A stretch of 64,000 bases of DNA. Origin: Clavulina sp. PMI_390 (lineage: Eukaryota; Basidiomycota; Agaricomycetes; Cantharellales; Hydnaceae). The notes below the pieces were generated by a model. That model saw only the letters and a program-made list of their open reading frames with translations, was not told the origin of the DNA and ran no database searches. The translations under genes and the position numbers were made by a program. Positions 28,565-64,000 of this stretch are shown in pieces (the stretch's first letter is position 1; the number at the start of each line of letters is the position of its first letter). Location of the stretch: positions 21,231 to 85,230 of the forward strand of contig WIDE01000010.1 in assembly GCA_015039315.1 (NCBI GenBank). Direction: 5' to 3'.

Positions 28565-29663
28565 CTAGAAGCGGGCCTTGGCAACGGGAGCCTTGCGCTT
28601 GACGGTGCCGTAGTAGGAACCGTCGAGGAACTGATCAACAGGAGCCTCGCGCTTGACGGTACCGTAGTAGGAGCCATCAAGGAACTCGTCAACAGGAGCC
28701 TCGCGCTTGACGGTACCGTAGTAAGAGCCGTCAAGGAACTGATCGACCGGAGCGGAGTCTTCCACACGTTTGACCGTACCGTAGTAAGAACCATCGAGGA
28801 ACTCGTCAACAGGGGCTTCGCGCTTGAGGGAACCGTAGTAGGATCCGTCGAGGAATTCATCCACAGGGGCAGAGGCTTCCTCCCGCTTCAGGGAGCCGTA
28901 ATATGAGCCATCGAGGAAGTCATCAACTGGGGTAGAGTCTTCCACACGTTTAACGGTGCCGTAGTAAGAACCATCGAGGAACTCATCCACAGGAGCCTCG
29001 CGTTTGACGGTGCCGTAGTACGAGCCATCAAGGAACTCGTCGACAGGAGCCTCCCGTTTAACGGTACCGTAGTAAGAGCCGTCAAGGAACTCATCTACGG
29101 GAGCGGAGTCCTCAGCTCGCTTAAGGGAGCCGTAATACGAGCCATCGAGGAAGTCGTCGACTGGGGTGGAGTCTTCCACACGTTTGACGGTACCGTAATA
29201 GGAGCCATCAAGGAACTCGTCCACAGGGGCCTCTCGTCTAACGGTGCCGTAGTAGGAGCCGTCAAGGAACTCATCGACAGGGGCGGAATCCTCCACGCGC
29301 TTGACGGTGCCGTAGTAAGAACCATCAAGGAACTCATCCACAGGGGCCTCGCGTTTGACGGTGCCATAATACGAGCCATCGAGGAACTCGTCGACAGGAG
29401 CCTCGCGCTTGACGGTGCCGTAGTAAGAACCGTCAAGGAACTCGTCAACGGGGGCAGAATCCTCGGCGCGTTTGACGGTGCCGTAGTATGAACCATCAAG
29501 GAACTCGTCCACAGGAGCAGAGCTCTCCTCGCGCTGTCACAAGAAGAGTATTCAACATCGAATGCTCGAGACATTGAGCAACGATTGTTCGCACCTTGAT
29601 TGGAGCCGCGACAGCAGTGGAGACCGCAGCGCTCAAGATAACAAGGGTGGTGAAGGACTTCAT
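28565..29663 (-). CDS. RiPP/KEP precursor A: 16 repeats with YYG core
   Basis: Secreted repeat protein of 345 residues in two exons (29595-29663; 28565-29533). Exon 1 encodes only a 23-residue signal peptide ending AAPIK. A 61-bp phase-0 intron follows. Exon 2 holds 16 tandem units of the form VDEFLDGSYYGTV + KR + spacer. Kex2 sites (Lys-Arg, once Arg-Arg) end every unit. Thirteen cores read YYGTV and three (units 7, 11, 12) read YYGSL. Spacers are short (EAP) or long (AEDSAP, VEDSTP, EEASAP). The tail is KAPVAKARF. Kex2 would release up to 16 peptides with paired tyrosines, comparable in design to UstA (ustiloxin) and the asperipin precursor, whose tyrosines are cross-linked by UstY oxidases. 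The first UstY gene lies 1.4 kb away, divergently transcribed. Confidence 0.9.
28600..29520 (-). repeat. 54/63-bp tandem coding repeats of precursor A
   Basis: Sixteen in-frame units of 54 bp (short spacer) or 63 bp (long spacer). Units differ at many synonymous sites while the protein stays nearly constant, which indicates purifying selection on the peptide rather than very recent expansion. Confidence 0.9.
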
Positions 29664-31040
29664 GGCTAGGATTGGGGGTGAGAAGAGCGTTGCGCTGGAG
29701 AGAAGCGCTAGTCAGTGCCAGAGCGGTTGAGCTCGTAAGAGTGAGTGAAGAAGCTCACTGTGAACTGCGAGTGGAGAGGTGCTGAGGGATGCTTTTTTCC
29801 AGCTCCAATCTCGTCCCTTTTATGTCAAACGAAGCAATCCTGCAATGTAGACAACACTCCATCTCATCCTAAGCACAGTAGGCGAACTTGAGCGATCAAT
29901 TCCCGAGACATGTTCCAGTCATTATTTTGCGCATTATCGATGCGCATACGGAGCTCTTCGACGATGCAACGATACGAGCTCAGCACTGAAAGTTCATCCG
30001 CAGCATCGGAGCCGATGGGCGTCGATCATGGATCATGTTGAGGCTAAAATGAAGCTTCGATTAAGCATTCAAGGCTAATCTCGTACCTCAATGATCCATC
30101 AATTTCCTTGGCAGAAGGGTTATCAACGTCGCAAGCAGCTTGACACTGTGCGGAACTTTGAGGCGTGTGGAAGATTAGCATGCATGCATCATGACAAGGC
30201 AAAATGTAACACAACCGCGTCTTGGCAATTTCTTTCTTCTTGCTGTCATAGTCGTTCAAGGCAAGGTTGCGCGATAACCACCCCTGAGTACAACATCACT
30301 GGCATTAACTGTGCGCCAGAGGACGAGTCCATCGATGTCGGAAGGGCTCTATTGATGGATCCAGCGATGAAGAGCTGATTATTTCCCGCAAATTGATATG
30401 TAAGGCGACATCAGCAGAGCCGTTTCAGTCTTGGGTCGGGACGGTCGGGTATTGCAACGAGCTCATCGTCAGCGACAATTGCGGAGCATGGCAGCGCAAA
30501 TAAATCAAATAGTAATTTCATAACGGGGAAATCCTAGATAAACTCAGATACTTATCAGTGAGCGTCCCGAGTAGCGAGTTCAAGCCACCTGTCAGTATAG
30601 GTGGGCACACGATCAATTTCTTAGGATCCTTCCCCCAAACCATATTAGTGGGACAACAAAGAAGATCACGATCATGAGTGAACCTGTTATTGAGGAGTAC
30701 GGGTTTCAACATTACAGACATAGCACGATAGCTGCTGGCGACAAAAATCCACGCTGCCAAGAAACATGGACTGGTCACGTGGTATTATTTGGCATCCAAA
30801 CAACGTCCTCGCAATTCAGGTGGCTGGTTCATGAACTCCTCTCAAGACCAAGTAATATTGATGCCGCGATCTTGTGGCTGGAACTCGTTCCTGGGGGACT
30901 AATTCCACAAGCTTTTTCGTGCCAAGATTGATTGCCGCAAGTTTCAATCTCTTCATAGACAAGAGGAGCACAGAAGAATGCTCTAGCTCGATCCCTCTCC
31001 TCCCCTCCGCCATCTGCCCCCATCTCCCCTTCCCTTAGCC
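29664..31040. promoter_or_regulatory. divergent promoter region, precursor A / UstY1
   Basis: Shared upstream region between head-to-head genes. On the precursor side a TATA-like CATAAAA lies at 29817-29823, 154-160 bp before the ATG, matching the spacing in the other two precursor genes. No ORF here is supported. Confidence 0.5.
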
Positions 31041-32190
31041 ATGTCACAAGACTCTCCAATCTACAAGCAGCCTCTGCTCAGCAAGTCGAGCTTGGACGAT
31101 GTCGAGAACGTTCCTGACTATAGTCCAATCGACGAAAGAGCTCTTGCTGCCTCCAACCGAAACCGGAAGACTCAACGACTTCTTCTAATCGTCTCTGGCC
31201 TTCTTAACATCACTCTTTTCATCGCGGTGGCCGCCATGAGGTCGAGGGTGATGAATTCTGTGTCTTGGAAGGGCGCGCGACCAGTGTGGAGTATGTGCTA
31301 CCTTATATCGCGAGACCGCACGAGCATCTGATACGTTCTTCGTCCACTAGCACCTGCTAATCATGTCACCGAGCACGTTTATGTCAGGTTCCCGGACATT
31401 CATGACATTACTCCATTCAAGGGTCCGCCCACGGATGCCGTCGACAAGGCTTGGGAGGACCTTTATCAATGTAAGACCCTATTATTGAGATGCATTCGGA
31501 ATCCTTCCATTCTCTTACTTACTCCCTTCTAATGTCAGTTGGCGTCTCTGGAATTCCGAGAAGTATGGCCGCGAAGTTGGAGGGGCCCACTGTCAAATTC
31601 TACAATGACCAGGAGCACTATGCTGTTTTGATGGACGTTTTTCATCAGCTGCACTGCTTGGTACGTCTCCCCTAACGCGCCCTCTTTCGCGTCACCCACC
31701 TAGTATTCCAATCCTCCTAGAACGCTCTCAGAAAGAGTCTGTACCCTGAACGATACCCCAAGAATAACATGACCTTCAGCGGAGGCATCGACCATGTTGA
31801 GCACTTGGATCATTGCGTGAACAGCATCAGAGAAAGTCTCATGTGGGTCCATCCTACTTCCCCAATGCTCGCTGTCTCGCTCACGATCGTGGACATCCTA
31901 GGTGCAACGCGGATACTACGCCTAACCGCTGGGATTGGAATCCTGATGCGCGTGTTTCCGATCCTCACTTCACAAACGTCCACACTTGCAAGAACTGGAA
32001 CCTCATCAGCGACTACGCCAAGTCCATTTCCGCTAAAACCACATTTGACCGGTGGCACTTTGCGCCAGACGACCTCAAATACCCAGAACACCGGTACGAG
32101 AACGTTATCGAAGATTACTCCTCGATAGATCTCTACGCATTCCACAACTATGACTGGAGCTACTTAGACAAGATCCGCCCAGCGGATTGA
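31041..32190 (+). CDS. UstY-type oxidase (DUF3328), alpha type, copy 1
   Basis: Five exons: 31041-31290, 31351-31470, 31539-31660, 31721-31842, 31902-32190; 300 residues. One N-terminal membrane helix (about 53-72, LLLIVSGLLNITLFIAVAAM) follows a short cytosolic start with a PLLSKSSLDD motif. The lumenal part carries the two diagnostic HxxHC motifs, HQLHC (159-163) and HLDHC (192-196), which are thought to bind copper in this family. UstYa/UstYb proteins catalyse oxidative macrocyclisation of tyrosine-containing core peptides after Kex2 processing. A family-specific C-terminus (HFTNVHTCKNW, RWHFAPDDL, YDWSYLDK) is shared only with the copy at 39.7 kb. It is followed 755 bp later by a beta-type UstY gene in the same direction. 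Confidence 0.9.
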
Positions 32191-32944
32191 TGGGAAGCCG
32201 GTAGTGGCTAAGATTTCTCTAGTTAACTCGTTACACACATCTTTCCGATCTACTTCTGTTAGTGTTAGTCGTCAATTGATACCGAATAACCATTATCGTT
32301 TTGTGCTTTAATAAATCATATGCGCGAAGCCGCAACGCCAAGAGGCACACGACCAGTATTTCCCAGTGGCTTTGTTGATCGTGGCCAAATACTGCTGTGA
32401 TGAGCTGGCCACATTGTGACAATCATACTCCGTGAATGTAAAGGTCTTTCACAAACAACGCTGCGGGGCTCGAGATCTCATCCAGTCATCTTGACACTAC
32501 TTTCTATGCCGGAGCTTGCCCGGATGACCTGTTCTTTGTCAAACACGAATATCGTTCACGGCGTTCATTAGACTAATGCATGAACAATCTCCTCAAATTA
32601 TATTCGAGGATGCAGGAACCGAGTAGGTAACTTATTTCACATCACTCCGCTTCGAATGAGTCACTGAAAGCAGGTCGGACTTCATTCAAGGCCTGTTCCA
32701 TCACAGCGCACTAGGGCAACGAAAATGGTGCAACCCATACATCGGCTCATAACTTATCAGCAAATAGCGGACTCTTATATCGGATGCTTCTCATATTGCA
32801 TCTCTCTACTATCAATTTAGAGGAACATGTACCTCCTACACCTGATCCCAATAGGGGAGATCAGCTCGTATCCCTCTTCTTGCTCCTTCTAAGAACTGCG
32901 CTTCTCTTGCCCCGCCCTCTCCCTTTCACCTTTAACTCTTTATC
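32191..32944. other. intergenic, UstY1-UstY2
   Basis: 3' flank of UstY1 (with TTAATAAATC at about 32310) and promoter of UstY2. No gene seen. Confidence 0.45.
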
Positions 32945-34133
32945 ATGATTCCGTCGGATTACGAACCTTTGAGACTGTCAGAGGAGTCTGCAATCGAGAA
33001 AGCTCCTCCTACCCAGCCACTCCAAGGCGTGGAGACCCCATATTCTGAGCACTATGCTTCTATCAGTCGTCGCGCACGGCTGTTCGGGATATTTTTCTCT
33101 TTTTCTTTCGTATTCAACCTCTTGTTCATCGCGTCATTCGCCGCGAGTGGTTGGTCCACGGCCATGGTGCTGAAGCGGGACGAAAGTTGGGTTCTGTGGC
33201 GAGGAGCAAAGCCGGTGTACTGTGAGCCATTCGAACTCATCTACCCGAGTTCTATTCGCTGAAATATGATATCTTCTGTCAGCCCCAGCCGCCAAAGTCC
33301 TTACACATGAGCATAAGCTATCAAAGCGATTTACCCAAGTTTCGGATTATCAAGGGCCACGAACGTACGAGCGTGATCGTCTATGGGCGAGCCTGTACAT
33401 GCCTTGTAAGCTTCAATTCGCCCTCCCCCCGATAGTACTTAGCTAATCCCAAAACTATAGACAGTTGGGTTGGTGTAACTCGCGAACTGGCTAAGCCAAT
33501 GCTCAATCAAACGGAAAGGATCCAAGACGACATTAAGATCATGGGAGAACCTCGCTACATTCTGGACCTTGATGTCTTCCATCAACTTCACTGCCTCGTA
33601 AGTCCATTGGGTACTCGATATAGTCACGCCATTCTACGCGAGCTTATGCTATGACTCTCTATCAGGACATGATCCGTCGCAAGCTTAAAGGGCCACGAGA
33701 GGGTGAGGACCAGGAGCACAAGCCTCATTTTGCCCCAATGGGACCAGCCGACGACCCGACATACGACCATGTCGATCATTGTATCAACTCGGTCAGAGAA
33801 GCACTGATGTATGGCCACCATTTTACAATTTCACTTCGTTCATCCAGCTAATAAGTCTCTGCCAGGTGTAACCCAGACCTCACCCCAGTCGTTTGGCAAT
33901 GGGACGAAGCGAGCCAGAAAAGTGGTCCCAAGATCGACGTGGTGCATGTGAGGACTCTCGCCCCTCAGATCCCTGTTTGCCTTCTCTGACATAGTCCACT
34001 TTGCTTTCAGACTTGCGCGAACTTCAACGCCATTCAAGAGTGGGGAAAGAAGTGGAAGTTGCCTTACCATATTGATGATTCAGTTCATGTGCATGACGAT
34101 TGGACTCATTCTCCTCCTAACTTGGGGAGTTAG
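32945..34133 (+). CDS. UstY-type oxidase (DUF3328), beta type, copy 1
   Basis: Six exons: 32945-33221, 33283-33405, 33461-33597, 33666-33808, 33866-33947, 34011-34133; 294 residues. A membrane helix (about 44-66, LFGIFFSFSFVFNLLFIASF) lies near the N-terminus. The HxxHC motifs are HQLHC (174-178) and HVDHC (214-218). Between them is DMIRRKLKGP, and after them CNPDLTPVVWQWDE and a C-terminal WGKKWKLPY block. Exon lengths 2-6 (123, 137, 143, 82, 123) are identical to those of the copies at 41.6 kb and 63 kb, which defines this as a separate clade from the alpha type. As with UstYa/UstYb, the pair may act together on one precursor or form two different bonds. Confidence 0.9.
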
Positions 34134-34807
34134 CTCGAACTTCCTCCATGGATTTCACGACGTGAACTCTCAGGACGTTTGGAGCTTTTAACATGTTAGG
34201 GCAGTGTGCCTTCCTATATACTCTCTCTAGTCCCTCGTATTGGGTCGTTCTTGTGGAGCCTCTTCTTTATTACTTTTTCATCCACTTGAGGCTCACACAT
34301 TAGCGAGAACACCATAGTACTGTGGTATCATACGAAGTCAGAGCACGTTTTCATTTACTGGTGCATTTTGTATTTGAGGCAGGCAGCGCAAAGACAATCA
34401 GAATCAGTAATTGGGAGAATTGACCCAAGAAGAAGATCGACTTCCTTATATGCAGAACCATTGGACCCAGTACGGATGATGATCCCTGTTAGTTGGTTGC
34501 ACTGATTCCCTCGCTCAACTCTCACAGATGGATAAACCCCAATAGACCTAACGACAGGGTAATTACACGTGATCACAGTATATGAACGCCAAAAAGATTA
34601 CGGGAAAGAGAGTACGAAAAAGGAGACTGCCAATGGGCTGAGAGTAGTGTGGGGGTTGTGAACTGCGTCGCGATACGAATCAATACAGAGGAAGAAGGCA
34701 GCTCCCCGAAGGACAACGGAGAACGACGACATGCCGTTCGAGATGTACCTGTGCGCCAATCGAGATCCGAGAATGCCCGATAATCCTTGAATGACATGCA
34801 TACATTA
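34134..34807. other. intergenic between convergent genes
   Basis: 3' flanks of UstY2 and of the small precursor C. No gene seen. Confidence 0.4.
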
Positions 34808-35035
34808 TCAGCACATGTAGTCGGGGGATTCAACATCAAAGGCGGGAGTCTCGTTGCGCTTCTCGCCACGAGAGCAACGTCTCATTGCGCTACCATCGTC
34901 AACAGGCTGTTAAGTGAAAAGGATTGATCAGCATCCTAGCTCGTGAACTTTTCAAGTTACGCAAAGCACCTTGAGTGGGGCAGAAAGACTAAAAGAGAAC
35001 AAGGCGCTGAAGAACACAAGAAAGAAAGCCTTCAT
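34808..35035 (-). CDS. small RiPP/KEP-like precursor C, single core
   Basis: Found from gene architecture: it is too short for usual gene calling. Exon 1 (34970-35035) encodes a 22-residue signal peptide starting MKAFFLVFFS and ending SAPLK. A 63-bp phase-0 intron follows (34907-34969). Exon 2 (34808-34906) encodes 32 residues that contain one Kex2 site (GEKR) and end TPAFDVESPDYMC. The last segment aligns with the final unit of precursor B (TPFPDVEFTAYGGEKR), so this is probably a shortened paralogue whose last core lost its Kex2 site and ends in Tyr-Met-Cys. Exon-1/intron layout and upstream elements match precursors A and B. It could yield a different peptide or be a decaying copy. Confidence 0.75.
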
Positions 35036-35185
35036 TTTTCAAACTTGAAAGACGGATGAATAGATCTTTCCATGGTGAAGAAGAAGGGTGAGAGTGATTC
35101 TCTATATGATAGTAGGGATGATGTTACCTATGAGGGAGCTGGTCAGCTGGGGGTGTTGCTCTTTTTTCTCCTGCCAATGAGAGGG

Positions 35186-35307
35186 TTTTTATATCTGAGA
35201 GGCACAGTCAGAGAGCGGTCCAGTGGGAAACTATCTCTACTGGCATATCACCTCGATCAAGGCACTGTAGAGCATTAATTCGGCACGCAAGATTTAGTGC
35301 TCTCGGC
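35186..35307 (-). promoter_or_regulatory. precursor C promoter: TATA box and block shared with precursor B
   Basis: A TATAAAAA (minus strand) at 35186-35193, about 151-158 bp before the ATG. Further upstream, GATCAAGGCA (35255-35264), GCAAGAT (35287-35293) and CTCGGC (about 35302-35307) recur in the same order before precursor B. Confidence 0.6.
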
Positions 35308-35770
35308 AAGTTGGGGCCGATGGCAGTGGGGTCTTCAAGCGTGTTTGTGGCGAAAGTACAGGACTAAGTGGTTTATCCATGGCTTGAAGCGCTCATTAAG
35401 CTGAATGGTCTCACCAGCAGGTCCAGAAAATTCAAAAGACCTACTGGAACAACGGGCACAATATCCCAACGGGGTGGCCGGACGCGAACTGTGTTACGAG
35501 TTATTCAGAAGATAATAATCTACCAGTGGAGACCCAGCGTTATGGTTCCAGAGAGTGCTTCTGGTGTATGCCGCCGGCTTCCTTACAAGCGAAGGCTGTA
35601 AACAACACGGCAAACAAGGTTGAATGGCTGGCTACAAATAAATAGCAACTGTTCTTAAATGCAAAGTGTCCCAACCGTTGATAATCTACAAATGGTATAC
35701 GCAACAGGCCCCTTATAACTACATGTAGCCCAGTAGCAGCGGACCACGAGATTCTGTCGAACCCTTCAGG
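35308..35770. other. intergenic, nothing recognised
   Basis: AT-rich sequence between the precursor C promoter and the duplicated segment; no supported ORF. Confidence 0.4.
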
Positions 35771-36939
35771 GTACTATACGAATTGGAACGCCAGTACTTC
35801 ATGGATCATCTATCTGAGGGCTACTCTAAGGTCACCTGATATATCCGGGGTTTATGATCCCGAAAACGACACGTATGGTGGCCGTACATACAAAAGACTG
35901 TGCAGAGCTTATCGCCCAACCTCCGCTTTGAAACTGTTGTTCGCTACTTATGACCCTTTCTCATAGATGGCACTCTCATCCGACATGCTTACAAATAATG
36001 ACCTATAACAGAATGAGATTGATTAGAACATAAAAAAGCCTAATCCCAAGCAAGAGCAAAATTGGTGATTCCCTTCGGCTCCTCTGACGGCGCAGCGCAA
36101 GCTTGGATTGATAACCTATGAAATCTGCTAGTTTTCCCTACAAATATCCCTCGATTGTAGCTCAGATATTTATGTGTGGTACGGCGATCGGACAAGGTAT
36201 ACGCCAAGAGCGTGATCCCTTATTGATGTCGCCTACGTGAGTTTTCTGCTCCTCCGGTACAATTCATTTCGTAACTCTGTTCGGGAAAATCCTCCAGTAT
36301 CCTATTCAATTGATGAGATGACTCAGATATAATCCCCACTACAATCAAAATTCGGGCCGGGAGTTCACTTTTGATCTGCGTAGTTTGTAAAGGATATTGC
36401 GTGTTCTCATTTGCTTGGACTACGGTTGATTTCTTTATCCGATCTCAACCTAGTGCGCCACCACTCAGATCCCACATAGAGATATTTCTCCGTCCCCTGA
36501 TTTGTCAGACGCTTTGCAAGTGCTCACTCAAGAACTGAGAAGCATACTATCATTACACAACCAAAAGAGGTACAATCGCTCGAGGCATGAGCACAACAGG
36601 GCAAGCACAGGCGATATGCTTCATTCGAATCTGTGTAACTCCGCAGGGTCATCACCGGAGACATTCTAGATTCGGGAATAGGAATCAGTCCGAATGGCGC
36701 CTGTTCGAGGAAACACGAGAACTCACAAAATTCGTCAGCTTGCTGGCATCAATCAAAATTACACTGCGTTTTCGACAACACGCTTCTCGCCACCATAGGC
36801 AGTAAACTCCACATCAGGGAAAGGAGTGTCGTCGCGCTTCTCACCTCCGTAGGCAGTAAACTCTGTATCAACGGGAGGAGAGTCATCACGCTTCTCGCCG
36901 CCGTAAGCGGTAAACTCGGTATCAACGGGAGGCGTATCA
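35771..36939 (+). repeat. 1,169-bp duplicated segment, left copy
   Basis: Near-identical to 36950-38118 (offset 1,179); I saw one mismatch near its start (AGTACTTC against AGTAATTC). It ends directly at a run of Ns, inside precursor B coding sequence. Its edges coincide with the gap, so an assembly overlap or a second haplotype is the simplest cause. Confidence 0.9.
36759..36939 (-). pseudogene. truncated duplicate of precursor B 3' end
   Basis: Carries the last three repeat units and stop of precursor B, then is cut by the N gap. Sequence is the same as 37938-38118. Probably not a separate gene. Confidence 0.8.
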
Positions 36940-36949
36940 NNNNNNNNNN
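36940..36949. other. assembly gap (10 N)
   Basis: Ten Ns, a placeholder of arbitrary length, between the two copies of the duplicated segment. Confidence 1.
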
Positions 36950-38118
36950 GTACTATACGAATTGGAACGCCAGTAATTCATGGATCATCTATCTGAGGGC
37001 TACTCTAAGGTCACCTGATATATCCGGGGTTTATGATCCCGAAAACGACACGTATGGTGGCCGTACATACAAAAGACTGTGCAGAGCTTATCGCCCAACC
37101 TCCGCTTTGAAACTGTTGTTCGCTACTTATGACCCTTTCTCATAGATGGCACTCTCATCCGACATGCTTACAAATAATGACCTATAACAGAATGAGATTG
37201 ATTAGAACATAAAAAAGCCTAATCCCAAGCAAGAGCAAAATTGGTGATTCCCTTCGGCTCCTCTGACGGCGCAGCGCAAGCTTGGATTGATAACCTATGA
37301 AATCTGCTAGTTTTCCCTACAAATATCCCTCGATTGTAGCTCAGATATTTATGTGTGGTACGGCGATCGGACAAGGTATACGCCAAGAGCGTGATCCCTT
37401 ATTGATGTCGCCTACGTGAGTTTTCTGCTCCTCCGGTACAATTCATTTCGTAACTCTGTTCGGGAAAATCCTCCAGTATCCTATTCAATTGATGAGATGA
37501 CTCAGATATAATCCCCACTACAATCAAAATTCGGGCCGGGAGTTCACTTTTGATCTGCGTAGTTTGTAAAGGATATTGCGTGTTCTCATTTGCTTGGACT
37601 ACGGTTGATTTCTTTATCCGATCTCAACCTAGTGCGCCACCACTCAGATCCCACATAGAGATATTTCTCCGTCCCCTGATTTGTCAGACGCTTTGCAAGT
37701 GCTCACTCAAGAACTGAGAAGCATACTATCATTACACAACCAAAAGAGGTACAATCGCTCGAGGCATGAGCACAACAGGGCAAGCACAGGCGATATGCTT
37801 CATTCGAATCTGTGTAACTCCGCAGGGTCATCACCGGAGACATTCTAGATTCGGGAATAGGAATCAGTCCGAATGGCGCCTGTTCGAGGAAACACGAGAA
37901 CTCACAAAATTCGTCAGCTTGCTGGCATCAATCAAAATTACACTGCGTTTTCGACAACACGCTTCTCGCCACCATAGGCAGTAAACTCCACATCAGGGAA
38001 AGGAGTGTCGTCGCGCTTCTCACCTCCGTAGGCAGTAAACTCTGTATCAACGGGAGGAGAGTCATCACGCTTCTCGCCGCCGTAAGCGGTAAACTCGGTA
38101 TCAACGGGAGGCGTATCA
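36950..38118 (+). repeat. 1,169-bp duplicated segment, right copy
   Basis: Right partner of 35771-36939. It continues without a break into the rest of precursor B, so this is the copy that belongs to the intact gene. Confidence 0.9.
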
Positions 38119-38538
38119 ACGCGTTTTTCGCCGCCATAGGCCGTGAACTCGGTATCAACGGGAGGCGTATCATCGCGCCTCTCACCACCGTAGGCTGTAA
38201 ACTCGGTGTCTACGGGAGGCGCGTCATCACGTTTCTCCCCGCCATAGGCAGTGAATTCGGTATCAACGGGAGGAGTGTCGTCCCTCTTCTCCCCACCATA
38301 AGCAGTGAACTCTGTGTCAACGGGAGGTGTATCGACCCGCTTCTCGCCACCGTACGCAGTAAACTCCGTGTCAACGGGAGGAGCGTCTCCCGCGCGCTGT
38401 GAAGATAGTTGAGTATGATTTGTCATTATGGACCAAGGAAATGCGATACTAATGAAATGATATTCTTACCTTGAGCGGGGCAGCAAGTCCAAGGGTGCTC
38501 AAAGCACACAGGATAGCGATACAAGTGGTAGCCTTCAT
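37938..38538 (-). CDS. RiPP/KEP precursor B: 8 repeats with TAYGG core
   Basis: Secreted repeat protein of 175 residues in two exons (38470-38538; 37938-38396). Exon 1 is a 23-residue signal peptide starting MKATTCIAIL and ending AAPLK, then a 73-bp phase-0 intron. Exon 2 holds eight units of the form DDTPPVDTEFTAYGGE + KR (one unit ends RR), with a tail VVENAV. Unit 8 is the most divergent (TPFPDVEFTAYGG). Each Kex2-released peptide carries one Tyr in FTAYGG, near Phe and Gly, which resembles the one-Tyr cores of ustiloxin-type precursors. UstY3 lies 1.1 kb away in the divergent direction, exactly as UstY1 does for precursor A. The 3' part is duplicated to the left of an assembly gap. Confidence 0.9.
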
Positions 38539-38688
38539 CTCCACGAATTCCGAGCGCGGTAGCGAGTCTAAGCTGCTGGCGTCAACATGGGGTGAGGGCT
38601 AGTATAACCGATGGAGGAGAATTAGTGTCACCTTAGATGGAGTGGTGGAAGGAAACTGGAATGTTCTCCCACCGCAAGGATGGAGGGG

Positions 38689-38820
38689 TTTATATCCTTT
38701 TACCTCACAATTCAAACCGTTGTTTCTTAGAGAAGTGGCGTGCAGTGGCCTTCGTCTAGCGTTATCTAGCCCATGATCAAGGCATTGAGTTGAAACACAA
38801 GATCCACTGCTCGTCTCGGC
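38689..38820 (-). promoter_or_regulatory. precursor B promoter: TATA box and shared block
   Basis: TATAAA (minus strand) at 38689-38694, 151 bp before the ATG. GATCAAGGCA (38775-38784), ACAAGAT (38797-38803) and CTCGGC (38815-38820) repeat the order seen before precursor C. Confidence 0.6.
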
Positions 38821-39670
38821 GATTCCGAACCGACCGATAGGATGGGGCCAGAAAATCCTATGAAGAAATGGTAGTGTTTTTGAGTTTCCTGGCGGTGATA
38901 CCGCTGAACTCCGCGCGCGCCTGAGATCAATTTCCTGACGGATTCATGCGTTCGGACAAGTTGAGGCAATGGCCATGTGGCCAATTGAAGCACATATATA
39001 ACGTCTCAACAGATCTTTTGTATAGGAGTGGCTCCACTGGTGGATGAAGTGGACACGCCGGCGGGCTTATCGGAGGCGATATGAGGCAATCCCTACCAGA
39101 CAGCCATAATATGTTGAAAAAGAACCAGAACCAGCGCATCGGTTGCATTTACCCCTTCCATCTCGCCGCGCCATGCCGTCTCTGAATCGCTGTAAGTAAG
39201 CTCGAACATGCAAAAGGAAGGCTGAGATGCTGATTGGCCAAACATAAATAAAGCACAACTTCTCCATGTGGGCTATTTTCGTCGATGGTCAATGTACGTG
39301 TCTGGATAAACCTTCTGGCTTTGATTCATCTTGTGTCTGTCTCTGATTCTATGGGGCTCTATTAATCGGCGTCGGCCAGTCAGACCGCAGAATATCTCCT
39401 ATGATGGCATCCATGTTGAACACTCAATCCTGAGCTCCTTTATACATGAGAGTCCCGGCCTGACATCAAGAAGGGTGGTGGCTCCCCACATGGATGTGCA
39501 GAGCTGCGCATGATCTTCAGGTTTTGCTTCCATTGAACCTTCTTACGAGGTGTTTCTCCCATCAAACTACGCGGGAGCTGCTACCCCGAACAACTCCACT
39601 TTAATCTGTTCAGCACCTCATACCGCCTATCCCCTTCACAACACTCACAACCCTCTCAACTTTTGCATCG
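38821..39670. other. intergenic, divergent promoter region of UstY3
   Basis: Remainder of the shared upstream region; no supported gene. Confidence 0.4.
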
Positions 39671-40800
39671 ATGGCCCCAACAACTTCGATGTACCAGCAA
39701 CCTCTCCTCAGCAAGTCCAGTCTCGACGATGAGCATGATGTTGCCAACGAATACATGCTCCCAGATGAGAAAACTCTCCAAATAACGACTCGGCGCCACA
39801 AAATAGAGCGCCCACTACTAGTTCTTTCCATGGCCGTGAACATCTTCCTTCTGATCGTTGTTGCCGCAATGAGAGCCAGGGTAACACATTCGGTACCTTG
39901 GAAGGGTGCTAAGCCAGTATGGAGTACGGTCACATTACACTCCAGACTCTGTTGATCGCTCATCAATATTGTAGCGCCCGCAAACGACGTCGTCGAGCAC
40001 GTCCACGTCAGGTTCCCAGACATCCATGACATTACAGCTTTTGGCGGTCCGCCTACCGATGAAGTTGACAAGGCATGGAATGATCTTTATCGATGTGCGT
40101 CAGCCAATAAAAGACACATTCCTATGGCTCTGCTTCTAACACGTCCCTAGTCGGTATTTCTGGGATTCCGAGAAGCATGGCCTCCAAGCTTGAAGGCCCA
40201 ACGTTGAAGTTCTACAATGACCAAGAACACTACGTTGTTGTCATGGACGTCTTCCATCAACTCCACTGCCTGGTGCGTAGAAATTGCCTTGGCATGAAGT
40301 CGCACTCAATTCCCTACCTGCTCCTACAGAATGCGTTGCGCAAGACCCTATATCCGGAGCGATACCCAACGAACAACTTAACCTTTGGTATCGGCTCTCA
40401 TGTTGAGCATCTGGACCACTGTGCGAACAGTATCAGGCAGAGCCTAATGTACGTTGAATACTACCCAGACCTGCCATACCAACCTACTCACGCTCGATAC
40501 ATCGCCAGGTGTAATGCGGACATGACTCCAATCCGGTGGAAGTGGAACCCTAGAGCACGGGTGTCTGATCCCCACTTCACGAATGTTCACACGTGCAAAA
40601 ACTGGGATCGGATCAGTGACTTCGCGAGAAGTGTTGCTGCGAAAACTCCTCTTGATCGTTGGCATTTCGCACCTGACGATTTGCAATATCCCGAGCACCC
40701 CTACAAGGATGTTATCAAAGAGTACACCTCCGTCGACGTTGACGCTTTGCACAATTACGACTGGAGCTACCTCGACAAAGCCCGTCCGAATGACCAATAA
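39671..40800 (+). CDS. UstY-type oxidase (DUF3328), alpha type, copy 2
   Basis: Five exons: 39671-39923, 39975-40094, 40151-40272, 40330-40448, 40509-40800; 301 residues. Paralogue of the gene at 31.0 kb, with the same intron positions and phases. Shared blocks: PLLSKSSLDD, HVRFPDIHDIT, GISGIPRSMASKLEGPT, YNDQEHY, HFTNVHTCKNW, RWHFAPDDLQYPEH. Membrane helix about 52-70 (LVLSMAVNIFLLIVVAAM). HxxHC motifs: HQLHC (160-164) and HLDHC (192-196), both intact. It lies divergently from precursor B and is followed by a beta-type gene 752 bp downstream. Likely a membrane-anchored secretory-pathway oxidase acting on Kex2-cut cores. Confidence 0.9.
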
Positions 40801-41552
40801 AGTTCCCGTTCATTGTACCCCGATAACCTCGCAGATTGCTTCCATCAGACTATCGCAGGTCATGACTCTACTGCCCTCGCATGACTCCCTCTCGTCACTT
40901 TGCCGTACGTAGCTCTTGTAAATTAATTGGTACTTCAGCATCATCAAATCTGGAGCAGGGCCGAACTTGGGCGTGTGTCAATACAGGCTGAGCCCAATGA
41001 TATTATGGCTAACCCTGGCGTCCGCTCTAGAAAACTAATAGGATTGATTATCATTCTTTATCAACTTCCGATCTCAACAAACCATGTGGTACGAGATAGA
41101 GAACGAATACGTACAAGGTTGCACCATTGCGCTCGATCAACGGCCCGGAGTATCATTTCCCAGCTGACTGGAGCTGTGGCGATCATCTTGTGCCGTAGAA
41201 GCTTCGAATCTTGCGCTTGTGTTCGGAGGAATCCTGCGTTGACCAGCGCTAACGCTCGGCGCGCGTCCAACCGGCTTCTGCGCCCAAGCAAACGAGGTAT
41301 TATTAGATACAGCGCAAGTAAGTAGCCCAATAAGCATTCCCATGTGGCCGAAACTCACTCCAGCTAATTTCGGCGCATATGAACACTCTGTGAATCCAAA
41401 CCATGTAATCTGATAGCCAAGCCGCCTCATCGAGTTGAGCCTATGTTCTTGATGAACTAGGTCAAACTCGAAATCCCACCAGGAACTGGGCTTCCCTCAG
41501 CAGTTTCTACCTCTCCACCCTTTCTCTTTCCTCTCAATTATACGACCCCTTC
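40801..41552. other. intergenic, UstY3-UstY4
   Basis: 3' flank of UstY3 and promoter of UstY4. No gene seen. Confidence 0.45.
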
Positions 41553-42741
41553 ATGCCTGTGGCGGAGTACCAGCTACTGCCGCCCTCTGTGGACTCGCTC
41601 ACCAAGAAATATGAGCTTGACACTCTCCATGATGTGGACACCGAGAACCCTCACTCAAAAGAGCTTGCTGCTGCGAGTCGCCGAGCAAAGCTGTTAGGCA
41701 TATGCTTTGGACTCTCTTTTGCCGTCAACATCATGCTTCTTTCGTTATTTGCCACCAATGGATGGAAGATACCAGTGCTCTTGAGGAAGGGCGAACAATG
41801 GGCTATATGGCGGGGAGCGGCGCCTGTCTACTGTGAGCACTAACAACAGTGCAGGTCATCATTTGCTAGACCCTGGACACCTTCCTTTACAGCACCTGCC
41901 TCTGGGTTTATCACACATAAGCTAAAGCTCTCGGACCGCTTCACTCAAGCCTCAGACTACAACGGGCCCAGAACCAAGACACGAGACCACCTTTGGGAGA
42001 GCCTCTACTTACCATGTACGCGCCACTGTGGCACCATCTTATTTACGAGATTTAACTAACATATGGCTGCAGATAGCCCGGCGGCGGTTCCCCGTTGGAT
42101 GGCTGAGCCACTTCTAAACCATACCGAGAGGGTACAAGATGATACCGAACGTTTGGGGGAGCCTCGATACATCATCGATCTCGATGTGTTCCACCAACTG
42201 CATTGCCTCGTACGTGCCTCCTACTGTCCAGCATAGAGGAAGCCATTACTCAACACAATAGTTGCTATCGGGTAGGACATGATTCGACGAAAGCTGAAAG
42301 GGCCACTTGATGGCGAGGTGCAACACCACTCACCCAAGTTCATTCCGATCGGACTACCTGGCGATCCCCCCTATGAACACATTGATCACTGCCTAAATTC
42401 CTTGAGAGAGTCGCTCATGTAATTCTGCCTCACTACATTGAGAGGAGAGCTAAATTGACGAGTAAATGGCCATCTAGGTGTAACCCAGACCTCACACCCG
42501 TGGTCTGGCAGTGGGATGAAACACAACGAAGGACTAGCCCGAAGATTGATGTCGTGCATGTGAGCAGATCGCCTCCCAATGAAGATCTCTATTGGCCAGC
42601 TAATGACCATGGATCTAGACCTGCATAGACTTCCGCCCGATCCAGGAGTGGGCGAAGAAATGGAAACTGCCGTACCCTCCTAATGACACGATCCGGGTGG
42701 TGGATGATTGGATTCATTCACCCCCCAAGCTTGGAACATAG
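41553..42741 (+). CDS. UstY-type oxidase (DUF3328), beta type, copy 2
   Basis: Six exons: 41553-41832, 41893-42015, 42073-42209, 42276-42418, 42478-42559, 42619-42741; 295 residues. Membrane helix about 47-67 (LLGICFGLSFAVNIMLLSLF). HxxHC motifs HQLHC (175-179) and HIDHC (215-219). Shared beta-clade blocks: WAIWRGAAPVY, DYNGPRT, GEPRYIIDLDVF, DMIRRKLKGP, CNPDLTPVVWQWDE, WAKKWKLPYPP. It is much closer to the inverted copy at 63 kb than to the beta gene at 32.9 kb, so the 63-kb copy is the younger duplicate. An alpha/beta hydrolase gene follows 545 bp downstream. Confidence 0.9.
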
Positions 42742-42904
42742 GCAAGTCGTCAGGTCATGATACATCGTTCTATTCAGTTTCTGATTGATTTACGACAAGC
42801 ACGAGCGCTTCTGCTGTAATTTCTCAATGTCCAAATGCATATTATTGAATGCATCGAGTTTCGCAATCAAAAACAGTCGCCATGTGTTCCAGTGAAACGG
42901 GGAC
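41709..42904 (+). repeat. inverted duplication arm, left
   Basis: Covers most of the beta-type UstY gene plus about 160 bp of 3' flank (to CCAGTGAAACGGGG). The reverse complement recurs at 62807-64000, with scattered substitutions. Confidence 0.85.
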
Positions 42905-43285
42905 TCGAATACCGACTCAAAGTCCTTGAGATGCTGCTCGGATTAAAATTCCAGAGGATTGAGGAACACAAGTAACCTTTCATGAAATACTGTGAAGTGA
43001 CCCATCGGGTGACAGAATCTAGTAGGATATTTGGAGAGTGACGAGTCGAAGTGTCTCACGGCACTTTGAGCTAGAAGCTTGATTGCATCCGCAGCTTCTC
43101 TTTGCCTGCGGCGAACCGGACCATGCCGCGTTGGGGCTTTCCTCGGCACCGACCCTCTTGACTCACCTTCAGAGAGTTTGAGTCCACTACCCCTGAGGGA
43201 CTAGTTGCCTTGCGGTGAGAATTCAAGCTTGCCCACCCCATAGTTACACCTGCGGATATTGCCAACCCACTAGTACGTGAGCTCG
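42742..43285. other. intergenic, UstY4-hydrolase
   Basis: The first 160 bp belong to the inverted duplicate. No gene seen. Confidence 0.45.
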
Positions 43286-44582
43286 ATGACTGTCACTAAC
43301 TCGTTGTTCCTGCCAAGCATTACTGGCACCGTCAAACGAGCCTATGTCCCCCGTAAATCATGGCGAGCAGTAATATTCTGGTGGGCTTGGCGTTTCCAAA
43401 AAGTCTTTTTCCAACTTCGACGAAACCTCTATCGTCGCATCCGTCGTCTAATTGGACAACCTGTTCCTCCTCCTTGGCCAGAAGTTATCTTTCCCAAGGG
43501 GCCTCAGATATGGGGCCTTCCTCCCCCAGCATTAGTAAACAGGATGCTAGAAAGCGACAGAAAAAGAGCTATTACTCAGTGGGAACACGAAGAATCGGGA
43601 TGGGTGATGCCAATTGTATCGCCGCTTACTGATTCGAAGGAATCGAGTGCGGTTCGGCGGACGATATTCTACCTCTATGGCTCTGGATTTACAGATCCTC
43701 CAATGTACGCCCTAGGAACTGTTTCTATTGAATCTGATTACTTATCTCGGTCTCATCCTTAGCATGAAATGGCACTGGGCGTTCATCGGGTATCTTTCGC
43801 GTTGGCTGGATGCTGAGCTGGTTGTAGTGCCTTACCCTGTGGGACCAAATAACCCAGGCCCCGAATGGCGGCCTACTCTGCTAAGGATCTACAAAGAATT
43901 TCTAGCAAATGCTGGTGACAAGGAAATAATACTTGCTGGCGATAGGTAAGTGCTATTGGTTTACTAGTCATTGTGGATGGATTACTGAAATCATACATGA
44001 TGCGGCAGTGCTGGGTCGATAGTATGCAATGGACTAGTCCATGAACTACATGCCGCGAAAATACCTTTACCTCACCAGCTAGTCATCATATCCCCTGCTT
44101 TCGACCTTCAGCTCCCCAGGTCTGCAGATATGAAGGCCATTGAGCCATGCGACAATATGCTTACGGTGGAGCGCTGTCACCACATGCTCCGCGTATACGC
44201 CGGTATCCCTGTCCCACAATCCACCGTTTTAGCTCAACAGGTCCATACAATCCCCTTGCCGACCGAGTTCACCTCGAACCCTTGTTTTTCCGCGGGAGCA
44301 GGCGATCCATCCATCTTCCGTGAGGCTGGCACCAAAGTCATCATTGCCAATGGCGAATGGGATGTTCTCTTTCCCGAAGCAGATTCATACATCGAAAGGT
44401 TGGCGGCTGCAGAAGTGGACGCCACTTATATTGTGGGTGAGAAGCAATTCCATATTTTCCCTGTTGCGGTTGGTGCTACTCCAGAGTGCACAGTTGCCGC
44501 AGATATTGTTGTTGAGGCCATTCTTAAGAATGGAGAAGAATTTCATAGAAAAAGATCGACAATGCAACCAAAATCTCTCTAA
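43286..44582 (+). CDS. alpha/beta hydrolase (hormone-sensitive lipase / steryl-acetyl hydrolase type)
   Basis: Three exons: 43286-43704, 43763-43945, 44009-44582; 391 residues. The catalytic serine sits in GDSAGS (split by intron 2: GD-S-AG). The acid is probably in WDVLFPEAD and the histidine in KQFHIFP. The oxyanion-hole HGGG of the family is replaced by YGSG in IFYLYGSGF. A basic, Trp-rich N-terminal segment (RAVIFWWAWRFQKVFFQLRR) may associate with membrane. In other fungi this family removes acetyl or short acyl groups from sterols, lipids or metabolites. It lies directly after the beta UstY gene in the same direction, so it could be a tailoring or peptide-trimming enzyme of the locus, but nothing in the sequence fixes its substrate. 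Confidence 0.75.
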
Positions 44583-45033: not shown

Positions 45034-48000
45034 TTACTTCTTCCCCCACATCCATGATGGCAGGGTGCTCTTCAGCTTGAAGAACTTCTTGGCCATCGCC
45101 TTCCTCTCTGGTTTCCCACGAACGGCACGTCCCCTCGTATCACGGATATTGGAGCGCATCTGCCTTCCGATCAGGGCACGACGGTATGCAGCGGCATCGA
45201 TAGAGGCATCCGTGGAGGTCGTGGTAGTGGTGTTGATGCCAGGGCAGCTAGGAGTGTTGATGACGGAGCCAAAGTTCGCAGCGATCCAGAGAGTGACGCC
45301 ATTGGTCCAACCGAAGCCCGCTTGGACTGAACATCGGTTCACACAAGAACAGAGGTGCGTCAGAACGATCCACGTTTGCTCAACGACGGAGGGAGCGTGA
45401 CATGAACTTACCAGTGTACTCGCCACCACTACCTGCAATATCAACATCAAACATACTTTCCTTCTCAAACATGTTTCCAGTGTTGTTGAGCGAGAACGTC
45501 GAGTTGAGCACGCTATCGGGAAGACGAGGGAGGAGACCGTCGATCGAGCCACCCGTGGAATACCTGTATAACAGCGAAAGGTTCAATACAGCTCCTTCAT
45601 AGCAACAATAATTCTCAGCTCGGGGGAGAATACTCACCACGAACAGAACACGGCACTCATATACCGGTTTGCGAGCTCCCTGGCAAGCACCGCGTTCCAT
45701 GCCTCGCCAACCACTGGATCACCGCCGTTGACGACAGTGGTGCCATTCGAAGAATCGATTTCATTGATATCAGCTCCTGGACCGGTGCCAGTAGCATTGG
45801 CACCCGAAAGAAGAGGCTGGATGGGAAGGGCCGACTCGTCCAGACCGAGTTGACCACTGGGGACAAGAGAGAACGAAGAGACCTCGGAGGAAAGTGCAGG
45901 GAGCGCAACGGAGGTCACATTAGCAGGGAGATTCTGAAGAGCTTCGATAATGATGAACTGGTGAGGAGGCCATGCGCTGCAATATCGAATCGTCAGTGTC
46001 ATCCTATAGGAACGATGGCCGCCGGATATCGATGCGAACACTTACTTCGGGGCATCCCATTGCAGACCAGTCTGGACGAAGCTCGCAGGGAAGGTACCAT
46101 TATACCGCGACAGCACCATACGGACGGCTGAGAAGGCAGCAAGCGCATTGGTCGAGTTGCTCGCAACTTCATCCGGAACGATACCGCTCCAGTAAGGGTA
46201 GAAAGCCGCAGGAGAGAACCACGAGTTACGTGCGTTCGCCGTGACACTGAAGTCATAGAAAGCCAACTTTGTCGGATCCCAGAAGATATCGAGGATGGCT
46301 GACTTGAGAGTCGCTGCAACCTGAGTGTGGTAGGCTGCGCGCTGGAGATAGTATGTGGAGTTCCCAGTCGCGCCGGCCGACCGTCGCGCGAGAGGAACCG
46401 TTGAGTTTTGGGCAGCTTGGGTATACAGGTCCGCGAGAAGCGCTCGGTACTTGTCTATAGAGATCAATTAGGGAATGATCTTGTGCGGAGATGGCAAACA
46501 AGATGACTTACAGAGAATGCTGTTGAGATCAACAGGAATTGTCTCACGGACTTGCAGAGTACGAAGGATTGGGTACTGGTCAGACGAGTTCCCTCCCACA
46601 TATGGGTTAGACGAGAAGCTTCACGAGGATGGCGAGGTTAGTGTGATTCATATGGTAGAGGTTCAGAAGAGAACAGTTCGTACCGAGCAGTGTAGTCGTG
46701 TCCGCTCTCTGCACCACTGGCAAGCTCAGCATAGAGATCTGCTTTCTGGTCCTCGGTGTAAGGAGTGGTGAGATCGGGTCCGTTCGTTGTCAAGTAATCC
46801 TCAAGGAAGCCCTAAGAGTGAAACGTGAGATGAATGAAAGCGCAAATGGCGCTCATAATACTGACTTCAGGGCGAGGAGCTGTGTTGACGACGGCGTAAC
46901 GAGCGAGCTCCCAGGTATTGTTGCTATAAGGAGAGGTAACGTTCACAGTTCGGTTGTTGTGCCACCAATTAAGCTCAACCTAGAACAGAATGAGCGTTAA
47001 CAATATGATAAAATGCTCTTTCGCTCACCTCAGCAAGAGGGAGGGCTCGGTTGAGGATCGAAAGGTCGTTGGTCGCGCTGACGTATGCATAGAGCATCTA
47101 GAGAGGAGTAGATCAGCGATGAGTCACGCGCAATGCAGGGCAGATTCTGCTCACCTTCATGAAAAGAGGTGGTTGAGATCGGTTGAGGTAGTAGATTCGG
47201 CCGCCGTTCGGGATGAATCCATAATGCTCAAGCTCGTCCATGAAGTTCTGCAGGGACGAGTTCGCCACACTGTACAGCTCAGATTGGATGAGACCCTGAC
47301 AAATGAAAAGATGTTGAGTTCTATAGAAGTGTGATATATGCATAGAAACTACCACGCACTTCGATGATCCAGTATGAGTCCCAGTAGTACTGTTCCCGGA
47401 AACGACCACCGGGGACAACGAAAGTGTGGTTAAGCGGGATCAGGGTGCTTTCACACTTGACGCCATCGCATAGCGTGCTCGTGTTGGTATTGCGAACAAG
47501 ATCCGACCAATACGAGTGCACGATCTCCGCCCACCCAAGGATCACCGGACTAGTGATTGAAGTAGTTCCTGGTTGCAGGAATGCGGGCGTGGTATTCGAG
47601 GGCAGGGTGCCAGCCTCCAATTCTAGACCTTCACCTTGCTGAAAATTCGGGCAACACGGACATGCGATATTAATATCCAATGATCAAGAAACGGAAACGG
47701 GATTGTGAGAAACCGAAAATTTCGAAATGAAGGTCCTATAACGCCCGCTTCAGAACACTCACGTAGTCTGTTTCCACGTACGTCTCAAGCGCGCCATATG
47801 TGACCGCCGAGTAGTTGGAGATCACGGAAGTGTTGTAGAGTGCGTAAAAGTCCAACAAGGTCGCATTCGATGTGCCGACAGTGGGTTTGTCCACAAAGGT
47901 CTTGGCATCGCCATACAGCTGTGCAATGTTGATTGTTTGGAGAAGCTGAATCACTTGTATTAATATCATTCCCGCAGTAGCATTTTAGAAGGCGATCGAA

Positions 48001-48376
48001 CGTACTGCGCCATTGCAAAAGATCTCGGAAGGACACCACGCTTGCCTATGGAGAAATCGCGTCAAACAACAAACAGAGCAGCTGAAAAAAAAATCGAAAC
48101 TCACTTCGCTGCCAAAGGAGATTGCGCAGGCAAAGTTGCATTAAGTGCAGCCGTTGGGCTAGGCACTGACGTAGAGACCTCTAGTGGGGTCGTAGTCGTG
48201 GGAGCCTCCGTGCTCACGCTCGTAGAAAGCGTTGTTTGAGCCGTATGGCTCGTCGTAACTTTAGTCGTCAACGAGATCGCGCGAGGCTCAAGCTGGGCCA
48301 CGGCTGCCGCCCGGACGCTCTCAAGCGCGAGGGCAGCAGCGACGACGCCCACAGTAGCTTTCACAAAGCCAGTCAT
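45034..48376 (-). CDS. secreted trehalase, GH37, copy A
   Basis: Hydrolyses trehalose to two glucoses, most likely outside the plasma membrane. Many small exons. The N-terminus has a signal peptide (FVKATVGVVAAALALESVRA) and a Ser/Thr-rich linker. Trehalase signature 1 is at about 47351-47395 (PGGRFREQYYWDSYW) and signature 2 at about 46040-46060 (QWDAPNAWPP). AESGHDYTARF carries the general-acid Asp block, and GSGGEYTVQAGFGWTNGV the glycine-rich region with the catalytic Glu. Many N-glycosylation sequons (NST, NTS, NRT). The C-terminal tail is basic (RRALIGRQMRSN, KFFKLKSTLPSW). It is followed at 48.9 kb by an F-box gene on the same strand; this two-gene unit recurs at 51-56.5 kb. Confidence 0.88.
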
Positions 48377-62806: not shown

Positions 62807-64000
62807 CCCCGTTTCACTGGAACACAATGACGATCGTTTTTGCTTGCGAAACTCGATCCACTGGATGATAGGCATTTCGACACTAAGAATTTAGAGCAGA
62901 AGCGCTCGTTCTTGTCGTAAATTAACCAGAAACTGAATAGGTCAATGTATCACGAGCTGACAACTTACCTATGTTCCAAGCTTCGGAGGTGAATGAACCC
63001 AGTCATCCACCACCCGAATCGTGTCATTAGGGGGGTACGGTAGTTTCCACTTCTTCGCCCACTCCTGGATTGGGCGGAAATCCACGCAGGTCTAGACTCA
63101 TGATCATTAGCTGGTGAATACAGAGCTGCATTGGGGAGTCATCTACTCACATGGACGACATCAATCTTGGGGCTAGTCCTTTGTTGTGTTTCATCCCACT
63201 GCCATACGATGGGTGTAAGGTCTGGGTTACACCTAGATGGTCATTTACTCGTCAATTCAGCTCTACCTCCGTCAATTGAGGCAGAATTACATGAGCGATT
63301 CCCTCAAGGAATTTAGGCAGTGATCAACGTGTTCATAGGGGGGATCGCCAGGTAGTCCGATCGGAATGAACTTGGGTGAGTGGTGTTGCACCTCGCCATC
63401 AAGTGGCCCTTTCAGCTTTCGTCGAATCATGTCCTACCCGATAGCAACTATTGTGTTGAGTAATGGCTTCCTCTATGCTGGACGGTAGGAGGCACGTACG
63501 AGGCAATGCAGTTGGTGGAACACATCGAGATCGATGATGTATCGAGGCTCCCCCAAACGTTCGGTATCATCTTGTACCCTCTCGGTATAGTTTAGAAGCG
63601 GCTCAGCCATCCAACGAGGAACCGCCGCCGGGCTATCTGCAGCCATATGTTAGTTAAATCTCGTAAATAAGATGGTGCCGCAGTGGCGCGTACATGGTAA
63701 GTAGAGGCTCTCCCAAAGGTGGTCTCGTGCCTTGGTTCTCGGCCCGTTGTAGTCTGAGGCTTGAGTGAAGCGGTCCGAGAGCTTTAGCTTATGTGTGATA
63801 AATTCAGAGGCAGGTGCTGTAAAGGAAGGTGTCCAGGGTCTAGCAAATGATGACCTGCACTGTTGTTAGTGCTCACAGTAGACAGGCGCCGCTCCCCGCC
63901 ATATAGCCCATTGTTCGCCCTTCCTCAAGAGCACTGGTATCTTCCATCCATTGGTGGCAAATATCGAAAGGAGTATGATGTTGACGGCAAAAGAGAGTCC
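62807..64000 (-). repeat. inverted duplication arm, right
   Basis: Reverse-complement copy of 41709-42904 with scattered substitutions and small indels in non-coding parts. It continues beyond the window. The two arms enclose the hydrolase and the trehalase/F-box array. Confidence 0.85.
62969..64000 (-). CDS. UstY-type oxidase (DUF3328), beta type, copy 3 (5' end outside window)
   Basis: Minus-strand exons, last to first: 62969-63091, 63151-63232, 63291-63433, 63500-63636, 63694-63816, and 63877 to beyond 64000. Exon lengths 123, 82, 143, 137 and 123 equal those of the gene at 41.6 kb. The protein keeps FHQLHC and a second HxDHC motif, IVWQWDE and the WAKKWKLPYPP block, and the last codons read KLGT then stop. 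I saw no stop or frameshift in the visible part, so it is probably functional. The membrane helix and start lie to the right. A precursor or an alpha-type UstY gene may follow beyond the window, as in the two complete cassettes. Confidence 0.85.

Follow-up and report, generated by a model that had tools for sequence, protein, structure and literature searches.

This study was concerned with a 64,000-nucleotide stretch of the genome of the cantharelloid basidiomycete Clavulina sp. PMI_390 (contig WIDE01000010.1, here C2, positions 21231-85230; hereafter the window) and with the candidate biosynthetic locus that it carries at positions 28565-42741. The locus contains two secreted precursors and four genes of the UstYa family (PF11807/DUF3328). 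It is a cassette in two copies, each with a precursor read in one direction and two successive UstY genes read in the other. Such modules are probably dikaritin-type cassettes for ribosomally synthesized and post-translationally modified peptides, in which peptides cut by Kex2 would be oxidised by a pair of UstY proteins, and this interpretation is held here with good confidence. UstY-modified ribosomal peptides are known mainly from ascomycete fungi. Because several cassettes pair a repeat precursor with two genes resembling those of copper enzymes, the results suggest that ribosomal peptides are made and chemically modified by this basidiomycete itself. A first-pass annotation of this DNA had correctly placed it in a basidiomycete.

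Modules of one precursor and two UstY genes

The first module begins with precursor P1 (28565..29663, minus strand; exons 29663-29595 and 29533-28565), a protein of 345 amino acids (aa) with a signal-peptide-like start and 16 units of the form ..SYYG(TV/SL)-KR. On the plus strand lie UstY genes A1 (31041..32190; five exons, 300 aa, motifs HQLHC and HLDHC) and B1 (32945..34133; six exons, 294 aa, HQLHC and HVDHC). The second module has precursor P2 (37938..38538, minus strand; exons 38538-38470 and 38396-37938; 175 aa), with eight units of the form ..FTAYGGE-KR, and on the plus strand genes A2 (39671..40800; five exons, 301 aa, HQLHC and HLDHC) and B2 (41553..42741; six exons, 295 aa, HQLHC and HIDHC). 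When spliced, A1, B1, A2 and B2 are open frames, and each encodes a membrane helix and a pair of HxxHC motifs, as the first-pass annotation had described. The A1 model is letter-for-letter identical to public protein P0002, which provides an independent check of it. The assignment of the four genes to DUF3328 was also borne out, with PF11807 scores of 125.5-173.7 bits against a cut-off of 25 bits (A1 168.9, A2 173.7, B1 136, B2 125.5). Six of the eleven modelled UstY proteins were scored, the other two being C5 (107.4 bits) and D5 (149 bits).

UstY genes fall at six places in the genome (39.4 Mb, 301 contigs): three on C2 and one each on contigs C60, C198 and C237. Searches with PF11807, B1 and D5 as queries, in which 22/22, 22/22 and 19/19 candidates were scored, converged on these identical six places. 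The first pass of the searches was loose, as PF11807 alone missed B1, and therefore a diverged UstY member could be missed. At all six places a precursor lies on one strand and two successive UstY genes on the opposite strand. The start of the precursor is 1378, 1133, 1109, 1185, 860 and 1155 bp from that of the first UstY gene, and the two UstY genes are spaced by 755, 753, 763, 1331, 276 and 334 bp. This recurrence supports the pairing of a Kex2-type repeat precursor with UstY genes on which the first-pass annotation had relied. Its proposal of multiple precursors was right in that several exist, but they belong to parallel modules and not to one multi-precursor cluster.

Module 3 (approximately C2:87.2-91.7 kb) repeats module 2 in inverted orientation and has diverged from it (86% over 4.5 kb), and the precursor of module 4 (C60) has four SYYGVA units. 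Modules 1-4 use UstY proteins of groups A and B, and modules 5 and 6 those of groups C and D. The UstY pair therefore appears to have been copied as a pair. In a tree of 29 rows, with a root for drawing only, all eleven UstY proteins of Clavulina fall in a single clade (95/95). Its four groups A, B, C and D (each 100/100) track module type; groups B and C are weakly joined (85/61). The tree omits eight of the 26 homologues (P0001-P0003, P0010, P0018, P0021, P0022 and P0026), of which P0001-P0003 have our own models, or kin of these, in their place. Gap-interrupted UstY copies (L010 ~3022-2006; window 62972-64000) were excluded from the tree and from the comparison of nonsynonymous (dN) and synonymous (dS) substitution. 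That comparison indicates that A2 and A3 are constrained (dN 0.023, dS 0.26); in the older UstY comparisons dS was saturated, giving no ratio.

Two HxxHC motifs are present in all eleven modelled UstY proteins. Their residues H159, H162, C163, H192, H195 and C196 are unchanged throughout 25 aligned relatives (25 of the 26 homologues, with P0017 left out), 15 of which have ascomycete names. In NCBIfam, A1 had no match and B1 one match, far below the cut-off. An AlphaFold monomer model of A1 has a mean predicted local distance difference test score of 73.3, a predicted template modelling score of 0.58 and a helix at 32-74. Comparison of A1 with solved structures gave one chance match by sequence (E 0.7) and 21 matches by fold (best E 1.9). 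With a middling model and no solved counterpart, structure therefore adds nothing either way.

Repeat precursors and exon-per-core precursors

The first-pass annotation had described secreted precursors built of Tyr-containing units each ended by Lys-Arg, and this description was confirmed. Of 16 P1 units, 15 end in KR and one in RR, and of eight FTAYGGE units in P2, seven end in KR and one in RR. SYYG is invariant across the 16 units of P1 and is followed by TV in 13 and SL in three, giving YYGTV and YYGSL; TAYGGE is unchanged in 8/8 P2 units. P1, P2, P2b and P4 have 16, 8, 5 and 4 units, respectively, with cores separated by Kex2-type sites. These four precursors, of which P2b and P4 lie outside the locus, are alike in their first exon, which is short, encodes a secreted start and finishes in AP(I/L)K. 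In each, the intron that follows is so placed that splicing creates the first Lys-Arg. The putative signal peptides of the precursors are hydrophobic N-termini, judged by eye and with a crude hydropathy rule.

A scan for at least three identical 4-mers before KR or RR covered 134,939 bases, comprising the window and eight loci picked as holding or flanking modules. It identified five places (P1, P2, a truncated P2 copy, P2b and P4), and the same scan of 20 dinucleotide-preserving shuffle sets identified none. The precursor repeat arrays are not due to chance. Between units, the ratio of nonsynonymous to synonymous differences per site (pN/pS) is 0.055 in P1, 0.118 in P2 and 0.109 in P4, and pS itself is 0.62, 0.68 and 0.77. 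Synonymous sites differ widely and amino acids rarely; therefore it is the protein sequence of the arrays that is maintained, and they are not recent DNA repeats. Tyr is invariant in 16/16, 8/8 and 4/4 units of P1, P2 and P4. In the module 3 precursor (L010 6022-6485) the final unit terminates in YEFPYWK and not in FTAYGGEKR, which is a different terminal core. Pfam matches to the precursors were read as repeat effects, as no single stretch passes alone; a shortened P1 had five matches, the best being SPRTN_ZBD at 40.4 bits (cut-off 27), and P2 matched Cin1_N at 25.6 bits (cut-off 27).

The first-pass list did not include P3 (34808..35035, minus strand; exons 35035-34970 and 34906-34808), a precursor-like gene of 54 aa with one degenerate unit. 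Its first exon and intron are of the same kind as those of P1, P2, P2b and P4, no UstY gene is directly divergent from it, and a genome search with P3 matches only itself. The reduction of P3 to a single degenerate unit would fit a decaying or silent gene family, in which cassettes were copied with their repeats and are no longer used, and so would the fact that the modules are known from genome sequence alone. Such decay is very improbable, however, given that 11/11 modelled UstY genes and the other precursors retain open spliced frames, and that both the A2/A3 comparison (dN 0.023 versus dS 0.26) and the repeat pN/pS (0.055-0.118) speak for retention.

A second precursor design is found on C198 and C237, where small phase-0 exons form a chain with one xYYR core each. 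These gene models are predictions drawn from splice signals, from phase and from the likeness of the genes to each other. Secreted starts were sought with a crude scan, which gave four on locus L013 and four on L014, and one on each was chosen by its divergent position and by reading of the frame. For example, P6 (C237) has exons of 84, 24, 75, 75 and 69 nt, which encode the signal peptide, VNKRAEEI, NPDIIIYYR..KRAEEV, NPNLILYYR..KRDEEI and NPDLILYWR..RRAD. P6b and P6c (C237) and P7 (C263) are built like P6, with an exon 2 of exactly 24 nt that bears the first KR. P5 (C198) has three exons and two units, also in phase 0. Core-bearing exons in the C198, C237 and C263 genes range from 33 to 90 nt. 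C237 thus has three tandem exon-per-core YYR precursors (L014, C237:33500-43499; L035, C237:31000-33600), and P7 (L034, C263:33500-36500) is an orphan on a contig without a UstY match. Both P3 and P7 are without a UstY partner of their own, adjacent or on the same contig.

A degenerate core-exon pattern was written from P6, P6b and P7. It had nine matches in the genome, and the reversed pattern had none. Eight of the nine lie in the C237 and C263 genes, where the sole new gene matched was P6c, and a match was also found at C236:511244. A tandem-repeat finder reported nothing at the C198 and C237 loci, and the 4-mer scan does not catch P5-P7, whose two to three units are on separate exons.

Proposed processing and competing explanations

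In the proposed pathway, the precursor would enter the endoplasmic reticulum via its putative signal peptide, Kex2 would cut after KR or RR, and Kex1 would trim the ends. Each precursor would release numerous copies of a short peptide, acidic at the front and with a Tyr core of the form [ST][YA]YGxx (modules 1-4) or xYYR (modules 5 and 6). The Tyr core would then be oxidised by two UstY proteins, anchored in the membrane and with HxxHC(x)nHxxHC copper sites facing the lumen. An intramolecular cross-link would be the most likely outcome. Kex2 cutting, the use of copper and the action of each UstY pair on its neighbouring precursor are predictions; what kind of modification is made, and what biological role it serves, are guesses. 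In a 2025 study the HxxHC(x)nHxxHC motif of the DUF3328 hydroxylase CctR was shown to hold two coppers, and the same paper cites dependence on copper and oxygen for a halogenase and for the cyclase AprY (PMC12435403). A cross-link within the core is slightly favoured over other outcomes. The Tyr-cross-linked cyclic peptides named in the first-pass annotation are kept only as presumptive products, because DUF3328 enzymes have also been linked to hydroxylation, halogenation and isomerisation (PMC12435403). Computed [M+H]+ values, linear and minus 2 H, are 1761.785 and 1759.770 for EAPVDEFLDGSYYGTV, 689.314 and 687.298 for SYYGTV or SYYGSL, 1713.713 and 1711.697 for DDTPPVDTEFTAYGGE, 597.252 and 595.236 for TAYGGE, and 659.304 and 657.288 for SYYGVA.

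The precursors might instead yield Kex2 peptides that stay linear and serve as signals, surface-active agents or effector-like molecules, with the UstY proteins acting elsewhere or adding a small modification such as hydroxylation, an activity also known for DUF3328 proteins (PMC12435403). Linear, minimally modified peptides of Kex2-processed repeat proteins (KEPs) have been detected in several agaricomycetes (PMC9769878), and in a 2020 survey only 103 of 1680 basidiomycete KEPs had a DUF3328 neighbour (PMC7329392). In Clavulina, however, the precursor and the UstY pair occur together at 6/6 UstY places found and Tyr is invariant in every unit of P1, P2 and P4, and this alternative is considered unlikely.

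The repeats could also be those of alpha-pheromone-like precursors. EA directly follows KR in 8/16 P1 units, STE13 signatures are on record for basidiomycete KEPs (PMC6339444), and 17 of 76 KEPs resembling putative basidiomycete pheromones have a DUF3328 neighbour (PMC7329392). This explanation was rejected for want of an STE13 ladder and is regarded as exceedingly improbable. There is no XA/XP dipeptide ladder, and an EA start occurs in 0/8 P2, 0/5 P2b and 0/4 P4 units. In addition, a DUF3328 neighbour is lacking for 98.6% of putative fungal pheromones and for all 227 yeast alpha factors (PMC7329392).

Several points weigh against reading the modules as dikaritin-type cassettes. First, membership of the UstY family does not imply a cross-link, and the core ends are not defined by sequence. 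Secondly, searches with P1 and P2 recovered neither any relative nor the proteins themselves among the roughly 8000 top candidates of a set of 5.8 billion proteins (7998 and 7997 candidates scored, none kept at E 0.001 and 0.1), and therefore there is no outside support for their expression. Third, some gene models are less secure. P5 is the weakest precursor call, having two units and having been picked from the crude start list, and it was matched neither by the P6 protein search nor by the core-exon pattern. The public model of A4 (P0003) begins at an inner Met and retains putative intron 1, and the second UstY gene of module 3 enters a 2005-N gap. Lastly, partner enzymes were not found. 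No tyrosinase was found near the modules (6/6 candidates scored) or elsewhere on C2 or C60; the five matches lie only on C113 and, some 50 kb away from module 5, at C198:176.7 kb. No P450 was found near the modules, and the only one on C2 among the 104 matches listed (92/173 candidates scored) is at 406 kb. No transporter was found in 30 chosen neighbour frames scanned with Pfam, a scan with the flanks of modules 5 and 6 outside its scope.

Neighbouring genes, related systems and implications

Pfam families were matched in 11 of the 30 neighbour frames: trehalase (3), F-box, TANGO2, PHD, alpha/beta hydrolase, ketopantoate reductase, HisG, dynamin-like GTPase and aspartic protease. Among these 30 frames there was neither a methyltransferase nor a flavin monooxygenase, nor, beside the precursors, a reductase of the asperipin type. 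The first-pass statement that a P450, methyltransferase, flavin monooxygenase and transporter are missing thus holds for the candidates and frames covered. When six neighbour frames were compared across loci, none recurred beside modules of different contigs. The alpha/beta hydrolase at 43.3-44.6 kb was rejected as a module member, having no relative in the other module loci compared, and the end point of 44582 given in the first-pass annotation, which includes this gene, is too far. A ketopantoate reductase-like gene (ApbA; L012 1319-2128) lies beside module 4 and was not seen in the other loci compared. Between and beside modules 2 and 3 (window 49217-60713 and L010 7214-8743) are five related genes with 42-53% identity to the first; they are F-box-like by eye, and the one member scanned had no Pfam match. 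Two trehalase genes (45161-48342 and 51219-54356) share 71% DNA identity. At the left of the window, 28-1425 and 1881-3291 are tandem stretches, 70% identical, and a frame in the first matches TANGO2.

Two assembly gaps affect the locus. A truncated copy of the P2 array (36759..36939, minus strand) ends at a 10-N gap (36940-36949) and repeats 37938-38118 across it. The flanks of the gap are duplicated (35771-36939 versus 36950-38118; 1169 bases, 1 mismatch). The truncated array was accordingly rejected as a separate gene and is probably an assembly overlap. The 2005-N gap lies just past the right edge of the window (64000) and interrupts two UstY-B copies. One is a further copy at 62972..64000 (minus strand; 93% DNA identity to B2), whose first exon is cut by the window edge and the gap; it adjoins module 3, across the gap from the cut second UstY gene of that module.

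The known system nearest to the Clavulina cassette is asperipin-2a of Aspergillus flavus, with a YY core and a small, tyrosinase-free cluster. Its four genes are aprA (precursor), aprY (DUF3328 oxidase), aprT (transporter) and aprR (reductase), and its repeat precursor, with the core FYYTGY, lies beside the DUF3328 oxidase (PMC6514808). Clavulina differs in having two DUF3328 genes per precursor, a divergent layout, a basidiomycete host and the cores SYYGTV, TAYGGE and xYYR, and neither the reductase nor the transporter was seen in the frames scanned. The first-pass description of a reduced version is fair relative to ustiloxin and phomopsin, but the asperipin-2a cluster is itself small, at four genes with one DUF3328 oxidase (PMC6514808). 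Ustiloxin and phomopsin share with Clavulina a repeat precursor with Kex2 sites and a signal peptide, putative in Clavulina, and their clusters have two and five DUF3328 proteins, respectively (PMC7329392). In contrast, no tyrosinase matched on C2 or C60, other tailoring genes were not seen in the frames scanned, and the ustiloxin/phomopsin core Y-x-I is not present in the units of P1, P2, P2b, P4 and P5-P7. CctR of cyclochlorotine biosynthesis has the same HxxHC(x)nHxxHC motif, one membrane helix and a lumenal domain, but it hydroxylates cyclochlorotine as a homodimer (PMC12435403), whereas Clavulina has two diverged paralogues that always occur together.

Basidiomycete KEP-DUF3328 pairs are already published. 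The 2020 survey counted them (the 103 of 1680 noted above), including a DUF3328 neighbour for 8 of 12 Sistotremastrum-type KEPs (PMC7329392). For Pleurotus ostreatus, 16 UstYa-like genes have been reported and described as likely to take part in making dikaritins (PMC8893723). The 2020 survey was built on annotated proteins, whereas P1 and P2 were not found among the public proteins scored, and the words Clavulina and Cantharell- are absent from its main text (PMC7329392). No UstY gene was found outside the six copies of the divergent three-gene module, and such a repeated module was not met in the open-access literature (supplements and most subscription papers lay outside this scope). Exon-per-core precursors were likewise not met there, and the words intron and exon are absent from the main text of PMC7329392 and PMC6339444.

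The six precursor-UstY-UstY modules allow tests with three genes at a time and raise the question of whether two UstY paralogues are needed per peptide. In addition, exon-per-core precursors show how dikaritin-type peptides can escape repeat-based mining, because each core is on an exon of 33-90 nt and the tandem-repeat finder is silent. A more tentative and doubtful proposal is that Clavulina relies on a pared-down UstY cassette whose two paralogous copper oxidases work as an obligate pair, perhaps a heterodimer, and need no other enzyme to complete the peptide. In the same proposal, the YYR branch has one core per symmetric phase-0 exon so that cores could be gained, lost or selected through splicing, as in a plug-in exon design for ribosomal natural products.

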